Shown piece after piece: positions 5,525 to 60,613 of a stretch of DNA of 64,000 nucleotides; position 1 is the first letter of the stretch; the number at the start of each line of letters is the position of its first letter. The notes beneath the pieces were generated by a model that was not told the origin of the DNA, made no database searches, and was given only the letters and a program-made list of their open reading frames with translations. Made by a program: the position numbers and the translations under genes. Source of the stretch: a virus; the IMG/VR virus record IMGVR_UViG_3300030328_002748, positions 52,398 through 116,397 of that record; one strand, given 5' to 3'.

Positions 5525-5778
5525 AGGCCAAAGATTTTAAACAAGGCCTAATCATCAGTTATAAAAGTGATATTGATGTATGGGAAGGTTATGTTAATTT
5601 TATTAGTAAACAATACATAACTATTTGTTTACATGAATGGGACACTCCTCACACAATGCACGGCTATTCACAATGTAACTTGTTAGTCTATCCTGATTAT
5701 TATCAACATTGCAGTTCAAATGAAACATACCACGATAGGACTATTTCCACAGCCTTTAACAAAGATCGAATTGAATAA
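5521..5778 (+). CDS. Small hypothetical protein (85 aa)
   Basis: Begins MKAKDFKQGLIISYKSDIDVWEGYVNFISKQYITIC, a beta-rich opening that looks like a small SH3-like or OB-like barrel, though no family is recognised. Its last 59 bases overlap the start of the dioxygenase-like gene in another frame, a larger overlap than elsewhere in the chain. Either its C-terminus is tolerant or its true product is shorter. Confidence 0.5.
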   Translation: MKAKDFKQGLIISYKSDIDVWEGYVNFISKQYITICLHEWDTPHTMHGYSQCNLLVYPDYYQHCSSNETYHDRTISTAFNKDRIE

Positions 5779-6367
5779 AGATCTTTGTACTTTGGCTGCG
5801 GAGATATTTGATAAGAAGGTAAGGGAAGAAGTAGAAGCATTAAAGGAGGATGATGGCGAACAATTAAAACATTTTCACAATCACGAAAATGTATTTGATT
5901 TATATTCAGAATTACAGCCACTCCATGACACTTTATTGGAGATGGCTGATTTTGTTTATTGTGATGTAATGAACTATGAATATGGTATGCGATTCACTCA
6001 AGCTTGGTATAATGAATGTCAAGTAGGAGGACGGCAGAAAGCTCATTCACATTGTAATTGCACAATATCAGGAACATTATATTTGAGAACTGATGAAAAT
6101 AGTATTCTTAATTTCTTTAATGATGGAAATAATAATGAAAAGAGTCCAGCCATCTTTGATGAACCAAGTAAGAAGAATAACAAGTTTGGATATATGTTCC
6201 ATGCAAATAGTGTTACAGCTCCAGTAAATACAGGAGATGCTTTATTTTGGCCGTCATATATTAATCATGGTTATCCTGATAATAAAACACCAAATAGATT
6301 ATCGTTAAGTTTTAATTTAATGCCAACAGCTTTAAATTCATTATATGGAAACATAGGAGTACAATGA
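5720..6367 (+). CDS. 2-oxoglutarate/Fe(II)-dependent oxygenase-like protein (215 aa)
   Basis: The C-terminal half fits the phage 2OG-Fe(II) oxygenase family (PF13759-like): a KAHSHCNCTISGTLYL segment with H109-x-H111, then GDALFWPSYINHGY with D173 and H183, and R193 in NRLSLSFN as a likely 2-oxoglutarate ligand. These enzymes hydroxylate or otherwise oxidise proteins, nucleic acids or small molecules using oxygen. The target here is unknown. Start at ATG 5720 keeps the usual N-terminus but overlaps the previous frame by 59 bases. Overlaps the next dioxygenase-like gene by four bases. Cyanophage genomes often carry several members. Confidence 0.8.
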   Translation: MKHTTIGLFPQPLTKIELNKDLCTLAAEIFDKKVREEVEALKEDDGEQLKHFHNHENVFDLYSELQPLHDTLLEMADFVYCDVMNYEYGMRFTQAWYNECQVGGRQKAHSHCNCTISGTLYLRTDENSILNFFNDGNNNEKSPAIFDEPSKKNNKFGYMFHANSVTAPVNTGDALFWPSYINHGYPDNKTPNRLSLSFNLMPTALNSLYGNIGVQ

Positions 6368-6939
6368 CAATGACAATACCTACATTTATTGGCCAATATG
6401 ATGATGTACTATCACAAGAAGATTGTGATATATTAATTGATGAATTTGAAAAACATCCTAATAAGATAGAAGGATATGTATGGACTGAAGAAGGCACAAG
6501 TTATCATCCTGAGAGAAAGAAAGCCAGAGAATTACATAGACAATCATTAACTGAGGATAATATAATTAATAAGATTGTATTAAAAGGTTTAAATCCATGT
6601 ATGAAATTATATGATGAAGAATTTGAACAATTACAATACAATGGTAATTGGGGAATAGATCGATGGTTTAATTTTCAAAAGTATGAGGATGAAACTGATG
6701 GATTTAAAATATGGCATTGTGAACATGGTATGGGCAATTCCTCATATAGAATATTAGCATGGATGATCTATTTGAATGATGCAATATCAGGAACAGAATT
6801 TCAGATGTATCCAACAGTAGAAGCCAAACGAGGAAGATGTTTAATATGGCCGTCACAATTCACTCATACTCATCGATCAGAAATACCTAATCAAGGACTA
6901 AAGTATTTGGTAACAGGCTGGGTAAGTTTAATGCCGTAA
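6364..6939 (+). CDS. 2OG-Fe(II) oxygenase, prolyl hydroxylase-like (191 aa)
   Basis: Opens with FIGQYDDVLSQEDCDILIDEFEK, the helix typical of prolyl 4-hydroxylase-like dioxygenases. Likely iron ligands are H118 and E120 in WHCEHG and a histidine in FTHTHR (H168 or H170); GTEF at 143-146 and RGRCLIWPS fit the jelly-roll core. H-x-E in place of H-x-D is a known variation. The substrate is unknown. It ends the coupled chain that began at 3679 and meets a minus-strand dioxygenase-like gene tail to tail. Confidence 0.8.
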   Translation: MTMTIPTFIGQYDDVLSQEDCDILIDEFEKHPNKIEGYVWTEEGTSYHPERKKARELHRQSLTEDNIINKIVLKGLNPCMKLYDEEFEQLQYNGNWGIDRWFNFQKYEDETDGFKIWHCEHGMGNSSYRILAWMIYLNDAISGTEFQMYPTVEAKRGRCLIWPSQFTHTHRSEIPNQGLKYLVTGWVSLMP

Positions 6940-6950
6940 TGCCTGACGGC
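6933..6950. terminator. Possible bidirectional terminator hairpin
   Basis: GCCGT (6933-6937) and ACGGC (6946-6950) form a five-base stem between two convergent genes, followed by CTTAATTAAT. The stem is short and the T-tract poor, so this is tentative. Confidence 0.3.
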
Positions 6951-6951
6951 C

Positions 6952-7701
6952 TTAATTAATCTGCCGACTAAATCTTTTATTATCATCATCTACAACAGTC
7001 TCCATAAACTGAACATTACCAGAAATAGAAATACGAGGTTTATCTGATGTATAGAATGGATAAACCTGATGACTTAATTCACTAGGAAAGAAACATCCCC
7101 AACCATTCATATTAGGCGTCATAGGTATAACTTCATTACTAATACCTCTACCATCAGCATAGGTAAAAACAAAATTGCCGATATAATCATTAATACTGCC
7201 ACGTGCTATATCTAACTTACGCTCATCATAATGTGAATAAGGTATATCAATCCATATAACAAAGGAATAAATTCCATGATGATTATGTAATGGATTAAAT
7301 TCATGTTTATATTGCCAATTAGCCCATAATGCAGAAAGATAAGGTTCTAAGTTATGACCAGTATCTACATGGCCAGGAAATATCTTTTTATATGCCTCAG
7401 TAATCTCCTTATCCATTAACTCTACAGTAAAAGGATCATTCTCAGGTGAATGTAATAAATCAATGAACATGCCATGTATAAGCATATTCTCAGGATCTTC
7501 TAATTTAAGTGAACGTGATATATTACCAGCAAGGTTATCTTTCCAATCAATATTATTATCTTCTGCTATCTTTATTCTATTAAGTAAGTAAGTATAGATG
7601 TTATCAGGTAGTTTAAACAGATGAGCTACAGTCTGTTTAGTTAATAGAATAGGTTTAATTTCAGGCCTTTTATATGTTGAATAAGGGGTGGGATTAGACA
7701 T
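6952..7701 (-). CDS. 2OG-Fe(II) oxygenase-like protein (249 aa)
   Basis: Minus-strand gene. The segment NPLHNHHGIYSFVIWIDIP carries H139-x-H141, and GWGCFFPSELSHQVYPF carries H211, with R223 in KPRISISGNV as the likely 2-oxoglutarate ligand. This is the double-stranded beta-helix pattern of 2OG-Fe(II) oxygenases. The N-terminal 130 residues are a helical extension that may bind the substrate, which is unknown. It is the third such gene in 2 kb and the only one on this strand. No clear promoter was identified upstream in the AT-rich 7702-7900 stretch. Confidence 0.75.
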   Translation of the reverse strand: MSNPTPYSTYKRPEIKPILLTKQTVAHLFKLPDNIYTYLLNRIKIAEDNNIDWKDNLAGNISRSLKLEDPENMLIHGMFIDLLHSPENDPFTVELMDKEITEAYKKIFPGHVDTGHNLEPYLSALWANWQYKHEFNPLHNHHGIYSFVIWIDIPYSHYDERKLDIARGSINDYIGNFVFTYADGRGISNEVIPMTPNMNGWGCFFPSELSHQVYPFYTSDKPRISISGNVQFMETVVDDDNKRFSRQIN

Positions 7702-15801: not shown

Positions 15802-18800
15802 TGATCGATACCACTTCTCAGAAGGTTAAAGTCAATCAGGTAATCTTTAGCCAGATACCTTCTTTCGTTCAAGAAGAAAATCCTCTTTTTGTTGAATTTC
15901 TGAAGTCTTACTATCAAGGCCAAGAATATCAAGGCGGATCGATTGACATTATTCAGAACTTAAATGAGTATCAAAAGGTAGAAACGTATAGTAATAATGA
16001 TAGTCTTATAGGGTTTACTACTTGTAGTGGAGCCGTTACTTTTTATGATTCAACCATAAATGTAGTGTCAACAGAGGGTTGGCCCGATACATATGGATTG
16101 TTGAAAATCAATGATGAAGTAATTTCATATACTGGTAAGACAAAGACCTCCTTTACGGGGTGCCTAAGGGGTTTCAGTGGGGTCGAAAACCTTCATACCC
16201 CCTCTAATCCAGAACAACTGGTATTTAAGGATACTAACGCTGCTCAACACAAAGATGAGACGCAAGTAGTAAACCTTAGTAACCTATTTTTACAAGAATT
16301 TTGGAAAAAGACTAAAACTCTTTTCCTTCCAGGCTTTGAAGATAGAAAATTAGTTAATGAAGTTGATAAAGCTAATTTCTTACGTCAGGCCAAAGATTTT
16401 TATGCGTCTAAAGGTACAAACGAAGCGGTTTCGATACTTTTCAAAGTCTTATATGGTAAAGATGTTGAAGTTATCAAACCAATTGATTATTTGCTCGCTC
16501 CTTCTGACGCTGATTATGTAATAACTGAAGATATTGTTGCAGAATTGATAAGTGGTGATGCACTTAAGACGATTGGACAAGTAATAAAACAGAATGGTGA
16601 TGATTATTCAGAGGCATCAATCTTTAATATAAGATATTTGCCTAAAAATGGAAAAGACTACTATGTAATCAGTCTCAGTAAGAGTACTGCTAAAGGTGAG
16701 TTCTCAATTACTGGAGGAACTGCTCTTACTAACAACATTGGGATTGGTGCAACAGTTTTAACAGTTGATTCTACTCTTGGATTCCCAAATATAGGAGATT
16801 TCTATGTTGGTGCAGGTATTACTGTAGGTATTGCAACATATACTAGTAGATCATCTACACAGTTCTTCGGTGTTAGTGGTATATCGTCGTCCTACCAACA
16901 AGGATCCACTGTACGGTCTTCTAACACGCTTGTTTCCTATGAAGAGGGTGATCTTAAGAAACCAGTCATTTTCAGGATGACGGCGGTTGCCAATAACGCT
17001 GATTTGAGTGATGTTGGGTTCTTATATCCTGGCGATATTCTTAGGGCCAAAAATCTTGGTAATTATACAAAGTCAAGCAACCAAAGATTGAATAGTTGGA
17101 TTCATAATGTTAAAACTACATCAAATGTAGCAAAAGATATCTATACAAATACATCAAATATTAATGTAGGAACAAATGAAATTAATACAACTGATCCACA
17201 TCTGTTAAGACTTGGAGATCCTATTACTGTAATGGATCTCACCTCTAATACACCACAAAATGTAGAGGGAACCGTATCTCAGATTGTTGATAACAATACA
17301 TTCCAGATTAACATCACATCTGGTACATTAAGTATCAATAGAACCTATAAAGTAAGAAATAACACCATATTTGCGAATAGTAATGATCCTAAGTTGGGAG
17401 TTAGTCAATTTGTTGCTAACGTCCAGAATACCTATAGTGACGATGAAGAGAATAATAGTTATGTGGCTAGTGGATCACTACCAGCGTACACAATCTACGC
17501 AACAGAGAGGGTAAAGGCGTTCACTGGCGCTAATGTAGGCGATAATGAGATAATCATCAATAATCATGGATTCTTTACAGGAGATCTTATAAAGTATAGG
17601 CCAACTGGGGTTGGAAGAACTACATTAGTTGGATTGGCTACAGATGCTAACTATGCAGTAACTAAAATTGATAATAATACTGTAAAACTATCGCAAAGTA
17701 TTGGTGATGCGGCTGTAAAGAGATTTTTAGATATTAATAGTGGTAGTTTACCAACATTAACACATGAACTCGTTCCATATGAATTATCTGGAAAGAGTGT
17801 TGAACATCAAAGATTCCTTAGAAAGATTCCAACAGAAGTATCTCTTAATGAGTTTAATAAGGAGTTAAAAAATGAACCCGTCGGTATGTTCCGTAACGGT
17901 GTTGAGATAATGTCCAATAGATCTGGTGATTATATCAGATATGGAACAGTAAGGACTATTGAAGTCCAAAATGGTGGTAAGGAGTATGATGTAGCTTATC
18001 CACCTAATATCAACATTAAAGATACCGTTGGTACTGGTGCAACTGCATATGCTATTGTAGAAAGTGGTAAAGTTGAAAGAATTGATATCCTTTCTGGTGG
18101 ATATGACTTAAGAGATGTTCCAAAAATAACAATTGAAGGTGCAAATGGTGTTGGTGCGGCTGCTGTTGGTAGACTTAGAAGAGTTCAGACTGTTAGGGGA
18201 TTTAGCCCAGACTTGAATGTTAATTTATCTACTGATACAGTTACTTTAGATGATAGACACTTATTTGACAATGGAGAATCGGTTTATTATAGAAAGGGTG
18301 TAGGATATGCAGCTATTGGAGGTTTGGTTGATAACTCCTTATATTATCTCCATACTCCAAATGAAACTCAAGTTCAGTTTATGGCAACTTATGATGATGC
18401 CGTTGCTGGAATCAATGCTATCAATCTTACCAGTAAATCTGCTGGTAGTAATACATTAACTTCTACAAAATTCAGAAATATTCTGGATAGTGTTGTTATT
18501 ACTAATCAAGGATCTGGTTATTCTAATAGAAGAAACGTAGTTAATAATACATTATATCCACCTATTAGTTACCTATCGGAAGGAGAAGTTAATTCTGGTA
18601 TTAATACAGCTAATCATTACGTATATTTCAAAGATCATGGATTTAATCATGGTGATTTAATTGAATATGATTCAACTGGCCCAATATCAGGTCTATCTAC
18701 TGATCAGAACTATTATGTTATAAAATTAGATGAAAGTAAATTTAGACTCAGTTCAGCTGGTATTGGTACTACTTTAACTGATGTAAATTATGTTAAGGAT

Positions 18801-47753: not shown

Positions 47754-48155
47754 ATGTCATTTAACGAAATTAACAAAGCACTTGATATTGATAGTGATGA
47801 TATAGTTTCTGTTGACAAAACGGAAGTAGAAGTAGGGATAACTAAACCAGATATAGATAGAGATTATGAATATACTCGTGGTCAACTCTATTCTTTAATA
47901 GAGAAGGGTCAAGAGGCTATTGATGGTATTATGGAAATATCACAAGAAACTGGATCTGCCAGGGCTTATGAAGTTACTGGACAGATAATTAAGAGTGTGG
48001 CTGATGCCACAGATAAATTATTAGACCTACAGAAAAAACTTAGAGATATTGAGGATCCTAAAGAAAAAGGCCCCTCAACTGTTAATAACGCTTTATTCGT
48101 GGGGTCAACTGCTGAGTTGCAAAAATTACTCAAAAAAGGTAAACTAGATGACTGA
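47754..48155 (+). CDS. 16: Terminase small subunit gp16 (133 aa)
   Basis: Matches cyanophage gp16, the oligomeric partner that regulates the packaging motor. The core YTRGQLYSLIEKGQEAIDGIMEI, ARAYEVTGQIIKSVADATDKLLDLQKKL is a helical hairpin typical of this protein; the tail ends in LFVGSTAELQKLLKKG. Slightly shorter than T4 gp16 (164). Its end overlaps the next gene by eight bases. The large subunit lies 5.2 kb away, beyond an insert of membrane and exported proteins. Confidence 0.92.
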   Translation: MSFNEINKALDIDSDDIVSVDKTEVEVGITKPDIDRDYEYTRGQLYSLIEKGQEAIDGIMEISQETGSARAYEVTGQIIKSVADATDKLLDLQKKLRDIEDPKEKGPSTVNNALFVGSTAELQKLLKKGKLDD

Positions 48156-48591
48156 AGAGGTAAAAAAGAAAGAGGAGAAGAAAAGTTTATTTGCTAAGGC
48201 AAAGGATGCGATTCTTCCCGATCAAGACGAGCAAGCTGCTATCATTAGTACATTTGTTCGTCTCGGCGTTTTGGTTTGGAGTGGCGGAATTTTGACTTTA
48301 AATTACGTGGCCATACCTGGCGTACCACAACAAAAAATAGATCCAACATTTATAGCTTCAGTTTTTACTGGCGTGCTAGCTAGCTTTGGCATTCAGACTG
48401 CATCTAAAAAAGGTGACGGTACTATGAAAATGGATGCTGCTGCAAAGGCTGCTGCTAATGGAGGTAGTGGTAATGGTAATGGAGGAACAGTTCAAACAAT
48501 TAGAATTGAACAAGCACCTCTAAAAATTATTGCAGCTGATATTCCTCCTACATTGGATCCTAAGAAAGATCCTTCTAAACCTATCGTATAA
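48148..48591 (+). CDS. Membrane protein (147 aa)
   Basis: A charged N-terminus (about 20 residues of Lys and Glu) precedes two hydrophobic stretches (about residues 34-52 LGVLVWSGGILTLNYVAIPG and 64-80 FIASVFTGVLASFGIQT), then a glycine-rich linker and a proline-rich end. Holin-like in size and layout, but without family evidence. Conserved in cyanophages between the terminase subunits. Confidence 0.75.
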   Translation: MTEEVKKKEEKKSLFAKAKDAILPDQDEQAAIISTFVRLGVLVWSGGILTLNYVAIPGVPQQKIDPTFIASVFTGVLASFGIQTASKKGDGTMKMDAAAKAAANGGSGNGNGGTVQTIRIEQAPLKIIAADIPPTLDPKKDPSKPIV

Positions 48592-48595
48592 AATT

Positions 48596-48841
48596 ATGCA
48601 AAAAATTGTAAATGTACTTGCTGTTGCGTCTTTCGCTGTATCTGGTGCCGTTGTCTGTAGTGGGTTATACGTATTTGTCAATCGTGCATCCATCATTGAT
48701 GGAATTAAATCTCAAGCTTTGGAAGCAGTTGCAGGTTCTTTGGGAAGTCTTGTAGACGATTCAATGCCTGAGATGCCATCCACAACTGGTGGGGTTGCTC
48801 CAATACCTTCTCCTGCTGCTCCAACAACTCCAAGTCTATGA
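48596..48841 (+). CDS. Small exported or membrane-anchored protein (81 aa)
   Basis: Start at ATG 48596, four bases after the previous stop; an overlapping upstream ATG at 48530 is less likely. The N-terminal hydrophobic segment (VNVLAVASFAVSGAVVCSGLYV) can act as signal anchor, followed by a small helix and a proline/threonine-rich tail (PSTTGGVAPIPSPAAPTTP). The tail overlaps the next ATG. Confidence 0.7.
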   Translation: MQKIVNVLAVASFAVSGAVVCSGLYVFVNRASIIDGIKSQALEAVAGSLGSLVDDSMPEMPSTTGGVAPIPSPAAPTTPSL

Positions 48842-49002
48842 GTGTAATTATCTATCAAGATCACATAGAGGAACTTGAAAGAGAATTGATTCAAGCGAAA
48901 GAAGAGATTGTTTTTTTAAAAGAACAATTGGAAGTAAAGACTTATGGTTTACCTGAGATAACTATGTTATCCCAAGTTTACCGTAAGGAAACTTCTGGTT
49001 GA
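48838..49002 (+). CDS. Small coiled-coil protein (54 aa)
   Basis: Starts in an ATGA overlap. The first 32 residues form a good coiled coil (YQDHIEELERELIQAKEEIVFLKEQLEV), then a short tail. Unknown function. Its stop overlaps the late promoter at 49001. Confidence 0.65.
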   Translation: MSVIIYQDHIEELERELIQAKEEIVFLKEQLEVKTYGLPEITMLSQVYRKETSG

Positions 49003-49008
49003 TAAATA
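49001..49008 (+). promoter_or_regulatory. T4-type late promoter
   Basis: GATAAATA, 20 bases before the GTG start at 49029. Confidence 0.6.
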
Positions 49009-49028: not shown

Positions 49029-49832
49029 GTGGAAATACCTAATATTAATGATATTAATGTTAGATCGACTAATATTAATGTAAGATCTATTAATGTATCG
49101 GATATACGTAATCCGAACATTAGACAGTTATGGCTTAGGCCTATTTTCGACGTATATACTCCGAGAGTCTTTGTTCCTATTGCACCAATCACGGCTACTC
49201 TACGCAGACCTGTAGTAAATTATCCAGGCTGCGTAGAACATGCTGTAGCAATAGAAGATGATAGAAAGTTAATAAGGTGTGATGGTGAAGTTCCGCATTA
49301 TAGTGCGATGGACTATACACCAGAAAATTTAATTGTTACAAGAGAGATTCCACCACCATCAGTTGATCCTCCAACACCTCCAGAAACCCCAGAAATAGAA
49401 CCACCTAATATTCCTAAGACCGATGGAGACCCTCCATGTCCTAGCCCCAATCAACCAAGGATAGGAGATGTAGCTCAAAATCAAAAAGAAAAGGTGTCTG
49501 GATACGAGTTACAACCCGATCCAAACAACCAAGGAAAACAAATTTGTGTGATATTATATGAAGATATAGGAGTAGTAGAACAATTTTTGCCTTCTAGTCA
49601 AGTAGTTTCAACTACGGCTGTTATTGCGACGGTTGCAACAACTTCGGCACTTCTCGCAAAACCTCTTGCCGATTTACTTCTAAAGGTGGTAAAACCTGCT
49701 GTGAAGAAGTTGATGACGAAGTTGAAGAGTCTTGCTGGGAAAACAGGGGTGATTGAATCGAAAGGGGAGCGCCTAGTGGCCCAGCGTGAGAGGAATCGGA
49801 CGATTCTTGCTCTGAGAAGGTCTTTGAAGTAA
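49029..49832 (+). CDS. Conserved cyanophage protein, proline-rich (267 aa)
   Basis: The frame opens with GTG at 49029; an ATG two bases earlier is in a different, closed frame. The N-terminus has a repeated IN-x-x-S/D-I-N-V-R pattern, then a globular centre with VNYPGCVEHAVAIEDDRKLIRCDGEVPHYSAMDY, a long proline-rich linker (PPPSVDPPTPPETPEIEPP), and a hydrophobic then basic C-terminus (ATVATTSALLAKPLADLLLKVV) that may span a membrane. Conserved in cyanophages, function unknown. Its last 212 bases overlap a convergent minus-strand gene. Confidence 0.75.
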   Translation: MEIPNINDINVRSTNINVRSINVSDIRNPNIRQLWLRPIFDVYTPRVFVPIAPITATLRRPVVNYPGCVEHAVAIEDDRKLIRCDGEVPHYSAMDYTPENLIVTREIPPPSVDPPTPPETPEIEPPNIPKTDGDPPCPSPNQPRIGDVAQNQKEKVSGYELQPDPNNQGKQICVILYEDIGVVEQFLPSSQVVSTTAVIATVATTSALLAKPLADLLLKVVKPAVKKLMTKLKSLAGKTGVIESKGERLVAQRERNRTILALRRSLK

Positions 49833-50499
49833 TATTTTTATCAGTATATGTTAATGAATGTGCATGAGGTTGTATAGCATTTTTGCCCATAACTACCACA
49901 TCAGAACATACAACAGCATAAGGCGATTGTGGATGGAACATAATGCCAGCTTTAATGAGTTCACCACAGTTCTTAAGTCTTGCAATCTCAAAATCTAATC
50001 TTTTATTGGCAAGTAATTGAGCACGATATTCATTATGTGTTTTTGCTGCTTCTGTACATAATTTTTGTTGTTTTTTATTCAGTGGTATACTGAGTGTAGC
50101 TGAAAATCCAGCATTAAAATTATGGTTATCTTTTTGACCAGTTCTTGTAGGTACGTAATATAAAATTTCGCCAGGGTTATCCAACACGCCATCATTGTTG
50201 GCGTCTGTCATGTCATATACGGGATCTTGATAGTAATATTCTCTTGGAATTTGATGGCTTTCGCTTTGAGTCACATATGGCGTGAAGTTAAATGTGGCTC
50301 CTTGACAGCTAATACCATCACCGTATTGATTGGTTATGTAAGGCCCTTGTAAGACCTGTATGGCTTGATTGGTGACGGAGCCTGTACTGTTCGCTATCGG
50401 CGATGCTGTCGCTGATACTCCACCAACTGTCTCTGATCGAACAGATACAGGGGTCACGCAAGCACTTAAGGCAAGGCCTAAAGTGGCTAGTCGCTGAAT
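49621..50499 (-). CDS. Exported or lipoprotein-like protein, third gene of leftward operon
   Basis: The frame is open on the minus strand from 50781 to the stop at 49621, but its upstream part overlaps the previous gene and looks like a shadow. The segment LGLALSAC just before VTPVSVRSE has a lipobox (L-S-A-C), which argues for including it. The only start that does so near the previous stop is ATT at 50499-50497, an unusual start; a GTG at 50457-50455 would drop the signal. The body has TNQYGDGISCQGATFNFTPY, a DANNDGVLD calcium-type loop, and a helical region with conserved cysteines. Conserved hypothetical in cyanophages. A Ser/Gln-rich tail overlaps the plus-strand gene. Confidence 0.65.
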   Translation of the reverse strand: MQRLATLGLALSACVTPVSVRSETVGGVSATASPIANSTGSVTNQAIQVLQGPYITNQYGDGISCQGATFNFTPYVTQSESHQIPREYYYQDPVYDMTDANNDGVLDNPGEILYYVPTRTGQKDNHNFNAGFSATLSIPLNKKQQKLCTEAAKTHNEYRAQLLANKRLDFEIARLKNCGELIKAGIMFHPQSPYAVVCSDVVVMGKNAIQPHAHSLTYTDKNITSKTFSEQESSDSSHAGPLGAPLSIQSPLFSQQDSSTSSSTSSQQVLPPLEVNRQEVLREVPKLLQPSQ

Positions 50500-50939
50500 A
50501 CACTGGTTGTGTCGGTTACGCTTGTTATTTCTGTAGTTCTCTGAATTACTGTCTGGTTCGTAACGCCTGGCCCCATATAGCTTTCCGTAAATTGGAAACT
50601 GCCTGCGCCTGGAGTTATTGTGAAGTTTCCTCTGGTTCCCAGATCTAAACCAGAAGTTGATGTTGTAACTGATCCACTTACTCCTCCCAATGGATCTAGG
50701 GTTACTGTGTTTATATTTGCTGAAGGACTTAAGGTTGTTCCATCGTGCGAAACCCCTGTCCCTGTTACCGTATAGCTCCATCCTGTTGAATAATCTATTG
50801 AATTTATCGTCTCAGTCACCTTGGAGCTAGTCTCCGTGTGGCTAGTCATCGAGCCCTGAGTAAAGTTTGGCACCACAGGAACCGCACTAACAGGCGTCGC
50901 CATACTCAACAACGCAAATGTTGTTAGTAGACGTTTCAT
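50487..50939 (-). CDS. Exported beta-rich protein (150 aa)
   Basis: Clear signal peptide: KRLL, hydrophobic core FALLSMATPV, and a likely cut after S-A near residue 19. The mature part is rich in Thr, Ser, Gly and Val with alternating patterns (TGWSYTVTGTGVSHDG, GNFTITPGAGSFQFTESYMG), suggesting an extracellular beta protein. Shares the SF-x-x-T/SESY-x block with the neighbour upstream. Five bases separate it from that gene. Confidence 0.75.
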   Translation of the reverse strand: MKRLLTTFALLSMATPVSAVPVVPNFTQGSMTSHTETSSKVTETINSIDYSTGWSYTVTGTGVSHDGTTLSPSANINTVTLDPLGGVSGSVTTSTSGLDLGTRGNFTITPGAGSFQFTESYMGPGVTNQTVIQRTTEITSVTDTTSVFSD

Positions 50940-50944
50940 GGACT

Positions 50945-51454
50945 TTACTTAACTGTTACTTCACTAACAAACTGGCCTACGGCTGAAGTGCCGGCGCCTC
51001 CTGCTGTTAATGTCATGGCTCCCGCTGAAGTGATTGTGCCGGCTAAATTGCCCGCTACACCGCCAGAACTCGTGGTAACATTACCAAAAGCCGGTAATGC
51101 ACCTACAACACCAGCAGAAACAGACGTTCCATCAGTATCGACACTATCACCCATAACATAACTCTCACTAAATGAATAGGCTGAGCCAGCAGTGGTAATT
51201 GTGTATGTCGCATCAGTCATGGTAGCAGGTGCAGTTAAAGCACTGTCACCGCTTGCCGCTGTCAATCCACCGAAGGTTGATGCTGTGATATTAGATCCAG
51301 AACTTGTGTAAGTCGAGCCAATTCGCTCAGCAACTGAGCCAGCTCCATCCACCGTAATTTGAGTTGAGCTAGTTAACCGATGTATTAAATCGGCCTTAGC
51401 ACTCATAGGTGCAACCAATGAGAGTAATAATACTATAGGTAAATATCTTTTCAT
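50945..51454 (-). CDS. Exported beta-rich protein (169 aa)
   Basis: First gene of the leftward set. Signal peptide KRYLPIVLLLSLVAPMSAKA with a likely cut after residue 19-21. The mature protein is Ser/Thr/Gly/Ala-rich and cysteine-free, with TYTITTAGSAYSFSESYVMG similar to the block in the 150-residue protein, so the two may be related. No known family; outer-membrane association or secretion is possible. Preceded by a late-promoter octamer on the same strand. Confidence 0.75.
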   Translation of the reverse strand: MKRYLPIVLLLSLVAPMSAKADLIHRLTSSTQITVDGAGSVAERIGSTYTSSGSNITASTFGGLTAASGDSALTAPATMTDATYTITTAGSAYSFSESYVMGDSVDTDGTSVSAGVVGALPAFGNVTTSSGGVAGNLAGTITSAGAMTLTAGGAGTSAVGQFVSEVTVK

Positions 51455-51476
51455 AAAGATAATGAGTTACCAATTT

Positions 51477-51484
51477 TATTTAGT
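51477..51484 (-). promoter_or_regulatory. Leftward T4-type late promoter
   Basis: Minus-strand ACTAAATA, about 23 bases before the start of the 169-residue exported protein. The same octamer precedes gp13 on the plus strand. Confidence 0.55.
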
Positions 51485-52546: not shown

Positions 52547-52876
52547 ATGAGTCCAGACAGACACGACATACCCATATTAGGGGATTTTTATACTAAGAAG
52601 GAAGTTGATGCTATGATTGCAGCAGCTCTTGAAGAGGCTCGTGCCATTGACGAAGCATCGATGGCAGAACATAACTTCAAAGCTACTGTTATTAGTATGA
52701 TTCTAGGATTCATATGTCTAGCGCTATTTGTAGATGGTTTACTTCGCATACTTGGTATCGTTCCACCATTCATGGATCTTGATGTTAATATCTTGGATGA
52801 TATTGCAGAGAAGACTAAGATTATTGTAGAAAATGATTTGGTCAAAGCTGGTCTAAATAAAATACCAAGGCTATAG
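52547..52876 (+). CDS. Small membrane protein (109 aa)
   Basis: A soluble helical N-terminus (YTKKEVDAMIAAALEEARAIDEASMAEHNF), one strong membrane span (about 46-72, VISMILGFICLALFVDGLLRILGIV) and an amphipathic tail. TATAAT at 52534-52539 ends only seven bases before the ATG, so its relevance is unclear. Unknown function. Confidence 0.7.
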   Translation: MSPDRHDIPILGDFYTKKEVDAMIAAALEEARAIDEASMAEHNFKATVISMILGFICLALFVDGLLRILGIVPPFMDLDVNILDDIAEKTKIIVENDLVKAGLNKIPRL

Positions 52877-52879
52877 ACT

Positions 52880-53032
52880 ATGGTATTAGTTTTTATCATT
52901 ATAGGTATTCTTTTACTTTTGGTGGGAGGAGGCCTCTGGTTTACATTTGGGCCAGGCGGTAATGATGTAAGAGACCCCATAGACGAACATGCAAAAATGC
53001 ATGAATTAGGAATAGCCCATAAACATGATTGA
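52880..53032 (+). CDS. Small membrane protein (50 aa)
   Basis: Residues 2-24 are hydrophobic (VLVFIIIGILLLLVGGGLWF), followed by a short tail with several histidines (DEHAKMHELGIAHKHD). The start is three bases after the previous stop and the end overlaps the next ATG by eight bases. Confidence 0.6.
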   Translation: MVLVFIIIGILLLLVGGGLWFTFGPGGNDVRDPIDEHAKMHELGIAHKHD

Positions 53033-53132
53033 CACTTCATGGCCATCAATAAGAATGTTTCTTATTATCGTGATGGGCGTGGTGTGGTTTTATTTGTTAA
53101 ACATAGAACTTAGAAGTACAGACAAGGACTAA
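53025..53132 (+). CDS. Very small membrane protein (35 aa)
   Basis: A single predicted span (IRMFLIIVMGVVWFYLLNIEL) with a short charged tail. Overlaps the previous gene by eight bases and the next ATG by one (TAATG). Tight coupling on both sides supports it despite its size. Confidence 0.55.
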   Translation: MIDTSWPSIRMFLIIVMGVVWFYLLNIELRSTDKD

Positions 53133-53401
53133 TGTACCAACTCCAGAACATTTTATTTTTAGTATTACTCGTTTCTCTTTTAGGAACAACCATATGGTTT
53201 ATGGCCTCAATCTGGCTTAAAGAGGAAAAGAAACCAGTCCGTCCTATGCATCCAGAAATGTTGGAAGTGGAAGAGGGTACTAAATTAATGGGAGTAACCT
53301 TTACACCTAAAGACAGTTGTAATATATCTGAATATAAGAAACTTCAAGAAAGGATAGATAAGATACGTACTCAGTTGGAGAATGATCCAGAATTGGCATG
53401 A
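53132..53401 (+). CDS. Small membrane-anchored protein (89 aa)
   Basis: N-terminal span (about 5-27, QNILFLVLLVSLLGTTIWFMASIW) followed by a basic-acidic soluble part ending in a coiled coil (SEYKKLQERIDKIRTQLENDPEL). One membrane span plus periplasmic-type coiled coil is also the layout of inner-membrane spanins, but orientation and partner are unknown. Four-base overlap with gp17. Confidence 0.65.
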   Translation: MYQLQNILFLVLLVSLLGTTIWFMASIWLKEEKKPVRPMHPEMLEVEEGTKLMGVTFTPKDSCNISEYKKLQERIDKIRTQLENDPELA

Positions 53402-55065
53402 CTGATAACATATACTTAGGTAATCCCAATTTAAAAAAAGCTAATACTCCTGTTGAGTTCACTAAGGAACAGATACAGGAGTTTATTAAATGTAAGGATG
53501 ATCCTGTATATTTTGCCAAGAATCATATACAAATAGTTTCTCTTGATGAAGGTCTAGTACCTTTTGAACCTTACAGATTTCAAGAGAAATTAATTAATAG
53601 GTTTCATGAGAATAGATTTAATATATGCATGATGCCACGACAGACTGGTAAATCAACAACGTCTGTATCATATCTTTTACATTATATTGTTTTTAATGAT
53701 AGTGTTAATGTTGGTATTCTGGCCAACAAGGCATCTACTGCAAGAGAATTATTGGGTAGGTTGCAACTGGCATATGAAAATTTACCTAAATGGATGCAAC
53801 AAGGTATAATATCATGGAACAAAGGTTCAATGGAGTTGGAAAATGGATCTAAAGTACTGGCTGCGTCTACTTCTGCTAGTGCTGTTAGGGGTATGTCTTT
53901 CAATATCTTATTCTTGGATGAATTTGCTTTTGTTCCCAACCACATCGCTGATTCTTTCTTCGCTAGTGTTTATCCTACTATTACTTCTGGTAAATCCACC
54001 AAAGTTATAATGGTTTCAACGCCACATGGTATGAATCATTTCTACCGTATGTGGCATGATGCAGAAAGAAAACAAAATGAATATGTTCCCACATCAGTTC
54101 ATTGGTCAGAAGTCCCTGGCAGAGACGCTGAATGGAAAGCACAAACTATTGCAAACACTTCAGAGCAACAGTTTAAGGTTGAGTTTGAATGTGAGTTCTT
54201 AGGATCTGTAGATACTTTAATCAATCCAGCTAAACTTAGAGCATTAGTATATGATAATCCCATTAAATCACATAATGGTTTAGATGTTTATGAAAATCCA
54301 ATCAAGGAACATGACTATCTTTGTACTGTTGACGTAGCAAGAGGTGGTGGCCAAGATTATTCTGCATTTGTAGTTATTGATATTACGACTTATCCACATA
54401 AAGTAGTTGCTAAGTATAGAAATAATGAAATTAAACCAATGTTATTTCCATCTATCATCTATGATACTATAAGAGGATATAATAGTGCATGGGTTTTATG
54501 TGAGGTAAATGATATTGGAGATCAGATTGCAGCTATCTTAAATTATGATATGGAATATCCAAATCTACTTCAGTGTTCTATGAGAGGTAGAGCTGGACAG
54601 ATAGTAGGTCAGGGATTCTCTGGTAAGAAAACTCAACTTGGAGTTAAGATGTCTAAGGCAGTAAAGGCTCTTGGATGTTCTAACCTTAAGACTATAATTG
54701 AGTCTGATAAAATTTTATTCAGGGATTATGATATTCTCTCAGAATTAACTACATTTATTCATAAACGTAATTCATTTGAAGCAGAAGATGGATGTAATGA
54801 TGATTTGGCCATGTGTCTTGTGATATATGCATGGTTAGTTCATCAGGAATATTTTAGAGAACTTACTGATCAGGATGTTCGTAAAAAACTATATGAAGAT
54901 CAAAGGGATCAAATTGAACAGGATATGGCTCCTTTTGGGTTTATATCAACAGCAACCGATGAGGAAATCATTGAAGAGAAAGATGGTACTGTTTGGAAGA
55001 AGACGGATATTCAAGATATTGATTCTACATATGGCGATATGAGTTATATGTGGGATTATCAGTAA
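53398..55065 (+). CDS. 17: Terminase large subunit gp17 (555 aa)
   Basis: Packaging motor ATPase-nuclease. Walker A MMPRQTGKST (K85 region), Walker B ILFLDEFAF (D174, E175) and VSTPHG coupling motif at 207-211. The RNase H-like nuclease has D312 in CTVDVARGGGQDYSAF, E369 in WVLCEVNDIGDQ and D469 in GCNDDLAMCLVIYAW; the D312-E369 spacing equals that of T4 gp17 (D401-E458). Slightly shorter than T4 gp17 (610). No intron or intein is seen. Starts in an ATGA overlap with a membrane protein gene and its stop overlaps the next ATG. Confidence 0.97.
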   Translation: MTDNIYLGNPNLKKANTPVEFTKEQIQEFIKCKDDPVYFAKNHIQIVSLDEGLVPFEPYRFQEKLINRFHENRFNICMMPRQTGKSTTSVSYLLHYIVFNDSVNVGILANKASTARELLGRLQLAYENLPKWMQQGIISWNKGSMELENGSKVLAASTSASAVRGMSFNILFLDEFAFVPNHIADSFFASVYPTITSGKSTKVIMVSTPHGMNHFYRMWHDAERKQNEYVPTSVHWSEVPGRDAEWKAQTIANTSEQQFKVEFECEFLGSVDTLINPAKLRALVYDNPIKSHNGLDVYENPIKEHDYLCTVDVARGGGQDYSAFVVIDITTYPHKVVAKYRNNEIKPMLFPSIIYDTIRGYNSAWVLCEVNDIGDQIAAILNYDMEYPNLLQCSMRGRAGQIVGQGFSGKKTQLGVKMSKAVKALGCSNLKTIIESDKILFRDYDILSELTTFIHKRNSFEAEDGCNDDLAMCLVIYAWLVHQEYFRELTDQDVRKKLYEDQRDQIEQDMAPFGFISTATDEEIIEEKDGTVWKKTDIQDIDSTYGDMSYMWDYQ

Positions 55066-58723: not shown

Positions 58724-60373
58724 ATGGCTGGTAGATTATTTGGGTTTTCAATCCAAGGATCCGATGGCGATAATCTGCCTTCTTCAGCGGTTACTCCTGT
58801 TCCGCAGAATGAGGCAGATGCATCGGATTATTATGTGAGTAGTGGCTTTTATGGCCAATACGTTGATATAGAAGGCGTATTCAGAAATGAATATGACCTA
58901 ATAAAACGATATAGAGAGATGTCGCTTCATCCAGAGTGTGATGAGGCGATTGAAGATATTGTTAATGAAGCCATAGTTTCTGATATAAACGATAGTCCTG
59001 TTCAAATTGACTTATCGAATTTGAACGTGAGTGATCAAATGAAAAAGATCATTCGTGAAGAGTTTAAGTTTGTTAAGGATCTTTTAGATTTTGATGGTAA
59101 AGCTCATGAGTTATTCCGTAATTGGTATATTGATGGCCGTGTTTATTATCATAAAGTAATTGACCTTAAAAAGCCAGAAGAGGGATTACAAGAACTAAGA
59201 TTTATTGATGCATTAAAGATCAAATATGTTCGTAGACAAAAGAAAGAAGATAATAATATAGTTCCTATAAAAAATCAGAATGATCAGAATGTATTAACTA
59301 AGAGTCCTGAGATTGAAGAGTATTTTGAATATAATCCTAACTCTGGTAAATCTGGTCAAGGTTATCTTCCAACCCCAGCAGGTACAAAACAGGGAGCTGT
59401 TAGGATTGCAAAAGATGCAATTACATATTGTACTTCAGGACTAGTAGATCGCAATAAACATACAACACTTTCTTGGTTGCATAAGGGTATTAAGGCACTC
59501 AATCAACTTAGAATGATTGAAGATGCACTTGTAATTTATCGTTTATCTCGTGCTCCTGAAAGAAGAATATTCTATATTGATGTTGGTAATCTACCTAAAG
59601 TAAAGGCAGAACAATATCTTAGAGAAGTGATGAATCGTTATAGATCTAAATTGGTCTATGATGCAAACACTGGTGAAGTTAGAGATGATAAGAAATTCAT
59701 GTCTATGTTGGAAGATTTTTGGCTTCCACGTAGAGAAGGTGGTAGGGGAACTGAGATTACCACATTACCTGGCGGACAAAACTTAGGTGAAATTACAGAT
59801 ATACAATACTTCCAGAAAAAACTTTATAAGGCCTTAGGTGTTCCTGAGACTCGTTTAAATGCAGAAAGTGGATTTAATATGGGTAGATCTTCTGAGATCT
59901 TAAGGGATGAATTAAGATTTAATAAGTTTGTTGGTAGATTACGTAAGAGATTTTCAAACATGTTCTTAGACATGTTGAAGACACAATTACTTCTTAAGAA
60001 TATAGTATCTGCCAAGGATTGGCCTAGTATAGCTGAACATATACAATTTGATTATATTTACGATAATCACTTTACAGAGTTAAAAGAGTCTGAGTTATTC
60101 CAAAATAGAATGGGTAACTTGGCTCAAGCTGAACCATATGTGGGTAAATACTTCTCACAGGATTACTTACGTAGAGAAATACTTCGCCAGACTGATGATG
60201 AAATTGTTGAACAGAATAAGATTATGGATAAGGAGATTGAGGCTGGATTATATCCAGATCCAGCTATAGCTCAAGCGATGGAGATGCAAGCAGCTGCTGC
60301 GGATATAGAGAATACTGAGGCTCAAACGGCCAATACTTTAGATCCTGAAGCACCTGAAGGTGGCGAAATATAA
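58724..60373 (+). CDS. 20: Portal protein gp20 (549 aa)
   Basis: Portal vertex protein, close to T4 gp20 in length (524). Conserved stretches include YREMSLHPECDEAIEDIVNEAI, FRNWYIDGRVYYHKVID, LHKGIKALNQLRMIEDALVIYRLSRAPERRIFYIDVGNLP and YFQKKLYKALGVPETRLN, the region commonly used to type cyanophages. Forms the dodecameric ring through which DNA enters. Confidence 0.97.
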   Translation: MAGRLFGFSIQGSDGDNLPSSAVTPVPQNEADASDYYVSSGFYGQYVDIEGVFRNEYDLIKRYREMSLHPECDEAIEDIVNEAIVSDINDSPVQIDLSNLNVSDQMKKIIREEFKFVKDLLDFDGKAHELFRNWYIDGRVYYHKVIDLKKPEEGLQELRFIDALKIKYVRRQKKEDNNIVPIKNQNDQNVLTKSPEIEEYFEYNPNSGKSGQGYLPTPAGTKQGAVRIAKDAITYCTSGLVDRNKHTTLSWLHKGIKALNQLRMIEDALVIYRLSRAPERRIFYIDVGNLPKVKAEQYLREVMNRYRSKLVYDANTGEVRDDKKFMSMLEDFWLPRREGGRGTEITTLPGGQNLGEITDIQYFQKKLYKALGVPETRLNAESGFNMGRSSEILRDELRFNKFVGRLRKRFSNMFLDMLKTQLLLKNIVSAKDWPSIAEHIQFDYIYDNHFTELKESELFQNRMGNLAQAEPYVGKYFSQDYLRREILRQTDDEIVEQNKIMDKEIEAGLYPDPAIAQAMEMQAAAADIENTEAQTANTLDPEAPEGGEI

Positions 60374-60376
60374 ATA
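60369..60376 (+). promoter_or_regulatory. T4-type late promoter
   Basis: TATAAATA overlapping the gp20 stop, 25 bases before the start at 60401. Confidence 0.7.
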
Positions 60377-60400
60377 GATTGTAGTACATTTGTCAACATA

Positions 60401-60613
60401 ATGAATCCTGCTGAATTGATAGATAAAGTATTGGGTGATGCACCCGCACATGAGATATCCGATGGTATCAAAGATATTTTGATGCAAAAATCGGTTGATA
60501 GAATTGAAGCTGGTAAACCTGTTGTAGCCGACAGCATGTTTCAATCGCAATCTGAAAATGATGCTGAAAGTGAGGTAACTGAACAAGAACCTACTGGGGA
60601 ACAAGATGGCTAG
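60401..60613 (+). CDS. Small acidic prohead-region protein (70 aa)
   Basis: Lies between portal and protease, where T4 has gp67 and gp68 (prohead core). Acidic and helical (AELIDKVLGDAPAHEISDGIKDIL) with a Glu-rich tail. The position and acidity fit a prohead core protein, but sequence identity to gp67 or gp68 cannot be claimed. Overlaps the next gene by eight bases. Confidence 0.7.
   Translation: MNPAELIDKVLGDAPAHEISDGIKDILMQKSVDRIEAGKPVVADSMFQSQSENDAESEVTEQEPTGEQDG

Follow-up and report, generated by a model that had tools for sequence, protein, structure and literature searches.

Late-expressed exported beta proteins between the terminase genes of a cyanomyovirus as a possible arm of a conserved lysis or egress module

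Results

A leftward gene trio between the terminase genes

We analysed a 64,000-nucleotide stretch of DNA (the window) that forms part of a 116,397-base IMG/VR virus record and belongs to a T4-like cyanomyovirus. Within it, gp16 (TerS; 47754-48155, plus strand; 54.6% identity to S-PM2 gp16, 97 aa, E = 2.5e-39) and gp17 (TerL; 53398-55065, plus strand; Terminase_6N, E = 6.6e-22; 69% identity to S-PM2 gp17) bound an interval in which genes for a DUF6450 protein, a phrog_568 protein and T4-GC234 read rightward and are followed by T4-GC235, T4-GC236 and T4-GC237, which read leftward. The DUF6450 protein, a candidate holin of 147 aa (48148-48591, plus strand; PF20048, E = 1.5e-34), has two transmembrane (TM) segments, at residues 31-49 and 64-82; the 81-aa phrog_568 protein (48596-48841, plus strand; E = 1.4e-21) has one N-terminal TM segment (4-22) and a Pro-rich end; and the 267-aa GC234 product (49029-49832, plus strand, GTG start; phrog_570, E = 1.4e-63), Pro-rich and with no signal peptide, carries a single C-terminal TM segment by hydropathy (192-210) and a Lys-rich tail. 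Between the last two genes we noticed by eye an unlisted ORF of 54 aa (48839-49003, plus strand) with a coiled-coil-like product.

The leftward genes are GC237 (50945-51454, minus strand; 169 aa; phrog_564, E = 1.3e-50), GC236 (50487-50939, minus strand; 150 aa; Pfam DUF6322, PF19847, E = 3.3e-33) and GC235, of the Syn9 gp165 family (49621-50781, minus strand; 386 aa from a conserved internal ATG; phrog_848, E = 2.6e-121). They are consecutive, as the original prediction from the bare sequence had it, and its further statement that the rest of the 13.5-64 kb region reads rightward holds for the other long ORFs, all of which lie on the plus strand; the two additional minus-strand ORFs in the non-overlapping list (52588-53046 and 60322-60537) both overlap rightward ones. 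Elsewhere in the window, three 2OG-Fe(II) oxygenase genes lie side by side (5720-7701), the third on the minus strand.

The trio converges on GC234, a rightward gene of its own module, and GC235 and GC234 overlap by 212 nt (49621-49832). Of 165 convergent pairs, 121 show such an antisense overlap, which extends to 215 nt in P-SSM2 and could couple the two transcripts. The annotated P-SSM2 record, the source of the gene-cluster numbers, has the same cassette order and the same tail-to-tail overlap. The window carries the published cassette: the phrog_570, phrog_848, phrog_650 and phrog_564 profiles all match (the PHROG E-values of the cassette being the three given above and 4.9e-49), and GC237-236-235 converge with GC234 in the published order. 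In cyanomyoviruses the stretch from gp16 to gp17 is known as a hot spot for insertions (PMC3037559), so location there says little.

A conserved late promoter

A T4-type late promoter core, ACTAAATA (51477-51484, minus strand), lies 22 nt before the GC237 ATG, bearing out the leftward promoter originally proposed ahead of the first start; the late promoter of S-PM2 is NATAAATA (PMC2984593). Among relatives, TAAATA stands upstream of GC237 in 68 of 84 distinct regions (9.7 expected from shuffles) and CTAAATA in 43 of the 84 (1.6 expected), mostly 29-35 nt 5' of the GC237 start. Because TAAATA is conserved above shuffle expectation, the promoter is not a chance match, and late expression of the trio, as originally suggested, is supported by this comparative sequence evidence. 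In the main texts that we searched, we found no transcript or proteome data on these genes.

Three proteins with conserved export signals

Alignments show that the signal peptides of GC237 and GC236 are conserved in every lineage sampled, and the signal sequences of the trio as a whole support its predicted export. GC237, a Ser/Thr/Gly-rich beta protein, and GC236, also predicted to be a beta protein, share the S/T-E-S-Y block noted at the outset, and hhalign shows them to be homologous (96.7%, E = 4e-10), making them paralogs; as the GC237 profile drifted into GC236 during iteration, this homology was tested separately and raw GC237 counts were left out of the synteny analysis. A C-terminal S-x-F-[ST]-Q motif in GC236 is likewise conserved across lineages, and no lipobox is apparent in the alignments of either family.

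Of the checks recommended with the original prediction, remote-homology search linked the first two products, and structure prediction gave GC236 and GC235 models that match no solved structure at E 0.001. The AlphaFold2 model of GC236 (pLDDT 80) consists of two strands of about 24 residues each. The shapes nearest to it, none of them a significant match, form rings or barrels, phage collars and pore proteins among them; we take this likeness as a hint only, and in a viral structure library the GC236 model is well matched solely by its own relatives. In the GC235 model (mean pLDDT 68), beta strands fall within residues 35-117, and residues 120-161 form a confidently predicted helix.

GC235 carries a signal sequence at about 50434-50496, with a signal core and an AxA-type site, ahead of a mature part at about 49624-50433 with invariant cysteines. 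The first description saw a lipoprotein in this third product, and the window copy does contain a lipobox (LSAC); a lipobox occurs, however, in only 7 of 234 distinct homologs, which makes a signal-peptidase-I signal the more likely one. GC235 is thus probably not a lipoprotein, and on the same conservation we dropped it as an o-spanin.

GC235 is predicted to begin inside GC236

In 204 of 209 GC235 genes from T4-like and most T7-like cyanophages, no ATG, GTG or TTG lies within 75 nt upstream of the GC236 stop, the zone where the GC235 signal peptide should begin. Upstream of it, the -1 frame of GC236 is open for a mean of 268 nt, against 66 nt in synonymous-codon shuffles, and is open for at least 120 nt in 100% of cases, against 18%. 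A conserved GC236 Trp is preceded in myoviruses by a codon whose last base is A in 94 of 94 sequences (39 expected), with five different codons used, and podoviruses have ATG or GTG at -205 in 65 of 74; the sequences behind these counts are related, which makes the counts non-independent. The internal ATG lies at -292 in the window's relatives and at -163 to -175 in other myoviruses. In MPP-C podoviruses, where GC235 occupies the +1 frame of GC236, it is that frame which stays open.

In the window, the conserved position falls on an ATG at 50779-50781 (minus strand), which we checked in the sequence and predict to be the GC235 translation start; translation from it would add about 98 residues to the GC235 N terminus, a basic extension read in the -1 frame of GC236. 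The overlap itself is under strong selection. A programmed frameshift was considered and rejected: an in-frame slippery heptamer is missing from 156 of 211 overlaps, and GC235 was found to have a conserved out-of-frame ATG instead. Because GC235 starts inside GC236, one member of the pair is dropped or truncated in annotations: Cyanophage 9515-10a (locus L067, 4617-5558) has no annotated GC236, its gp165 call covering GC236 in another frame, and GC235 is truncated in the annotations of other T7-like cyanophages.

A linked unit across cyanophage lineages

Homologs are present in over 400 phage records, every one named as a cyanophage or marine virus. In a census of 307 loci, GC236, GC235 and DUF6450 genes are found together, with phrog_568 linked to the block; GC234 is convergent in T4-like, S37-C6, MED4-184 and MPP-C phages and codirectional in T7-like MPP-A/B. 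Counting only the 80 loci with 2.5 kb or more on each side, all 80 have GC236, 73 have DUF6450 and 63 have GC234. The DUF6450 family stands beside GC236/GC235 in T7-like, S37-C6 and MED4-184 phages, its membership lying above the Pfam cut-off in five divergent phages. GC236 and GC235 travel with DUF6450 and GC234 in S-TIM5-like phages too, and T4-like S-TIM5 keeps GC237-236-235 against GC234. One scan of 84,980 bacterial and archaeal genomes gave 14 hits, mostly on short or phage-size contigs, and none was a convincing copy; we read the family as phage-only, and an origin in the host is not supported.

Comparison with phage lysis genes

In T7-like cyanophages the block occupies the interval between the tail fibre gene and TerS. 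In P-SSP7, a one-TM protein, a two-TM protein, a signal-peptide protein, GC235 and one small gene precede TerS, and PSSP7_042-045 belong to the block. In T7, the interval from tail fibre to TerS contains a two-TM holin; between TerS and TerL comes an Rz/Rz1-like pair whose Rz1 is encoded in the -1 frame of Rz. Like class II holins, the window's DUF6450 protein is small and has two TM segments; two are also annotated in P-SSP7_043, the hydropathy threshold giving one or none in some podoviral members. Sequence searches matched the protein only to DUF6450 itself and to PHROGs of unknown function, and to no known holin family. No module member has a sequence or fold relation to a known holin, endolysin or spanin, and the block includes no endolysin.

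Set against two-component spanins, the module has the gene arrangement, GC235 starting inside GC236 in the -1 frame with signal sequences on both, and lacks the lipoprotein partner (lipobox in 7 of 234 GC235 homologs, none apparent in GC236 or GC237). As to an inner-membrane partner, the phrog_568 protein has one N-terminal TM segment followed by some 60 residues and GC234 a C-terminal one, both placed by hydropathy. A survey found no spanin in 20 Prochlorococcus and Synechococcus viruses, and proposed that the outer-membrane step is perhaps not needed, or that an inner-membrane protein with a C-terminal TM segment or an outer-membrane protein might substitute (PMC6139136). P-SSP7, P-SSM2, Syn9, S-SSM7 and S-RSM4, all on its spanin-less list, carry the module; since S-PM2, P60 and Syn5 are listed too (PMC6139136), the listing does not mark carriers.

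These last three are the block-less phages that we examined. P60 is without all six families; between its tail fibre gene and TerS lie an endolysin and a protein in which a hydrophobic stretch at the N terminus is followed by a coiled-coil-like region; Syn5, also without the module families, has a protein similar to the latter in the same interval. In S-PM2, other parts of the genome encode a short Phage_lysozyme protein, an exported DPBB (lytic transglycosylase-like) protein and a protein with a lipobox; the three lie close together at 16700-18430 of the S-PM2 locus L327, a candidate separate lysis cluster.

Discussion

The leftward exported trio is a sound observation, and its best reading, about which we are evenly divided, is as one arm of a conserved lysis or egress module. 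The original prediction left lysis, superinfection exclusion and a surface structure side by side; lysis is now the best supported of them, on the two-TM protein, the T7-like position and the exceptions that carry other lysis genes. A T4-type late promoter would drive GC237, GC236 and GC235 late in infection, and the three products, GC235 being translated from its internal start in GC236, would cross the inner membrane by secretion. On the inner-membrane side, the rightward DUF6450 protein may act as a holin-like pore former, accompanied by two Pro-rich proteins anchored by TM segments, GC234 and phrog_568. In the periplasm or outer membrane, the exported beta proteins would then form assemblies that open the outer membrane, doing the job of a spanin without a lipoprotein spanin. 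Sequence comparison supports the conserved signals, the late promoter, the dual-coded overlap, the cross-lineage linkage and the gene position; the lysis function, the DUF6450 holin role, ring or pore assembly and the division of labour are what we infer from them. That the trio forms the exported, outer-envelope arm of such a cassette, distinct from a canonical spanin, we hold at even odds, from its position, its linkage and the exceptions. The broader proposal, that several unrelated picocyanophage lineages share a new type of lysis system built from secreted, partly dual-coded beta proteins and a DUF6450 holin with no lipoprotein spanin, is more tentative.

Exported Ser/Thr-rich beta proteins with no lytic or holin match could also coat or remodel the outer membrane late in infection, exclude superinfection by blocking re-adsorption, or form fibres on the cell, with no part in lysis, and the paralogs GC236 and GC237 vary in sequence, which is common among surface proteins. 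Exclusion genes, however, are usually early and patchy, whereas the cassette genes are predicted to be late and are near-universal; surface modification, which we consider unlikely, would moreover not account for the T7 lysis-gene position or for the linkage with a two-TM protein. We put less weight still on GC235 and GC236 forming an outer-membrane or periplasmic channel that moves solutes or proteins during infection for another purpose, in the manner of the incomplete curli pores (CsgG/CsgF) of pelagiphages and methylophages. Such a channel would be in keeping with the modelled strand hairpin of GC236 and with the weak resemblance of its fold to ring- and pore-forming proteins, and curli-type pores do occur in other marine phages, where a lysis role has also been proposed (PMC9004378); but neither fold nor sequence comparison gave a significant match to CsgG or to any pore, the strands are Ser/Thr-rich and not clearly membrane-facing, and the idea overlaps the lysis model and is hard to separate from it. 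Homology to curli proteins themselves was dropped, with no CsgG or CsgF among the solved-structure or listed fold matches and no support from sequence.

Finally, the trio lies inside the virion gene cluster under the same type of late promoter, and phage collar proteins are among the nearest solved shapes to GC236, so that the proteins might be packaged in the particle. Against this stand the signal sequences kept in every lineage sampled, the invariant cysteines of GC235 and the S-TIM5 record, which lists the trio as hypothetical and not as 'virion structural'; we regard packaging as improbable.

For the study of how Prochlorococcus and Synechococcus viruses get through the outer membrane, the module offers named genes such as PSSP7_042-045 and Syn9 gp164-167: a unit of several cyanophage lineages, predicted to be late and exported and accompanied by a two-TM candidate holin. 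It is near-universal among the viruses of these hosts, the most abundant photosynthetic bacteria in the ocean, and may be the host-bursting machinery that has been missing from them; the shared system, if real, would be the main lysis route for most Prochlorococcus and Synechococcus viruses.

The genes themselves are known. GCs 218, 219, 234, 235 and 237, with a 'plasmid stability' gene, were described as a cassette present in all but one (S-PM2) of 16 cyanomyoviruses (PMC3037559). That cassette of Sullivan et al. (2010) is identical to the present one in gene clusters and order, but was described from T4-like phages only, as mobile hypotheticals with no function given (PMC3037559); to it we add the T7-like, S37-C6 and MED4-184 versions, the DUF6450 link, the internal GC235 start and the late promoter. 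We found nothing in support of the 'plasmid stability' label that PHROGs gives phrog_568, a short, TM-anchored protein. To our knowledge, no description exists of the dual-coded start, of the cross-lineage unit or of the function proposed here.

Two systems invite comparison. The curli genes csgG and csgF of pelagimyophages and methylophage Melnitz (PMC9004378) are, like the present module, late envelope genes with a proposed lysis role; they are different genes, with no detected relation between the module and CsgG or CsgF. The lysis genes of T7, holin gp17.5 and spanin 18.5/18.7, have no detected sequence relation to the module either: the T7 spanin combines a type II TM anchor with a lipoprotein, whereas GC236 and GC235 have signal-peptidase-I signals, and GC235 lies only partly inside GC236, unlike the 18.5/18.7 pair. 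Yet both systems place a two-TM protein beside TerS in the neighbourhood of tail fibre, TerS and TerL, and both the Rz/Rz1-like pair and GC236/GC235 are genes of exported proteins overlapping in the -1 frame, an arrangement that recalls spanin gene pairs.
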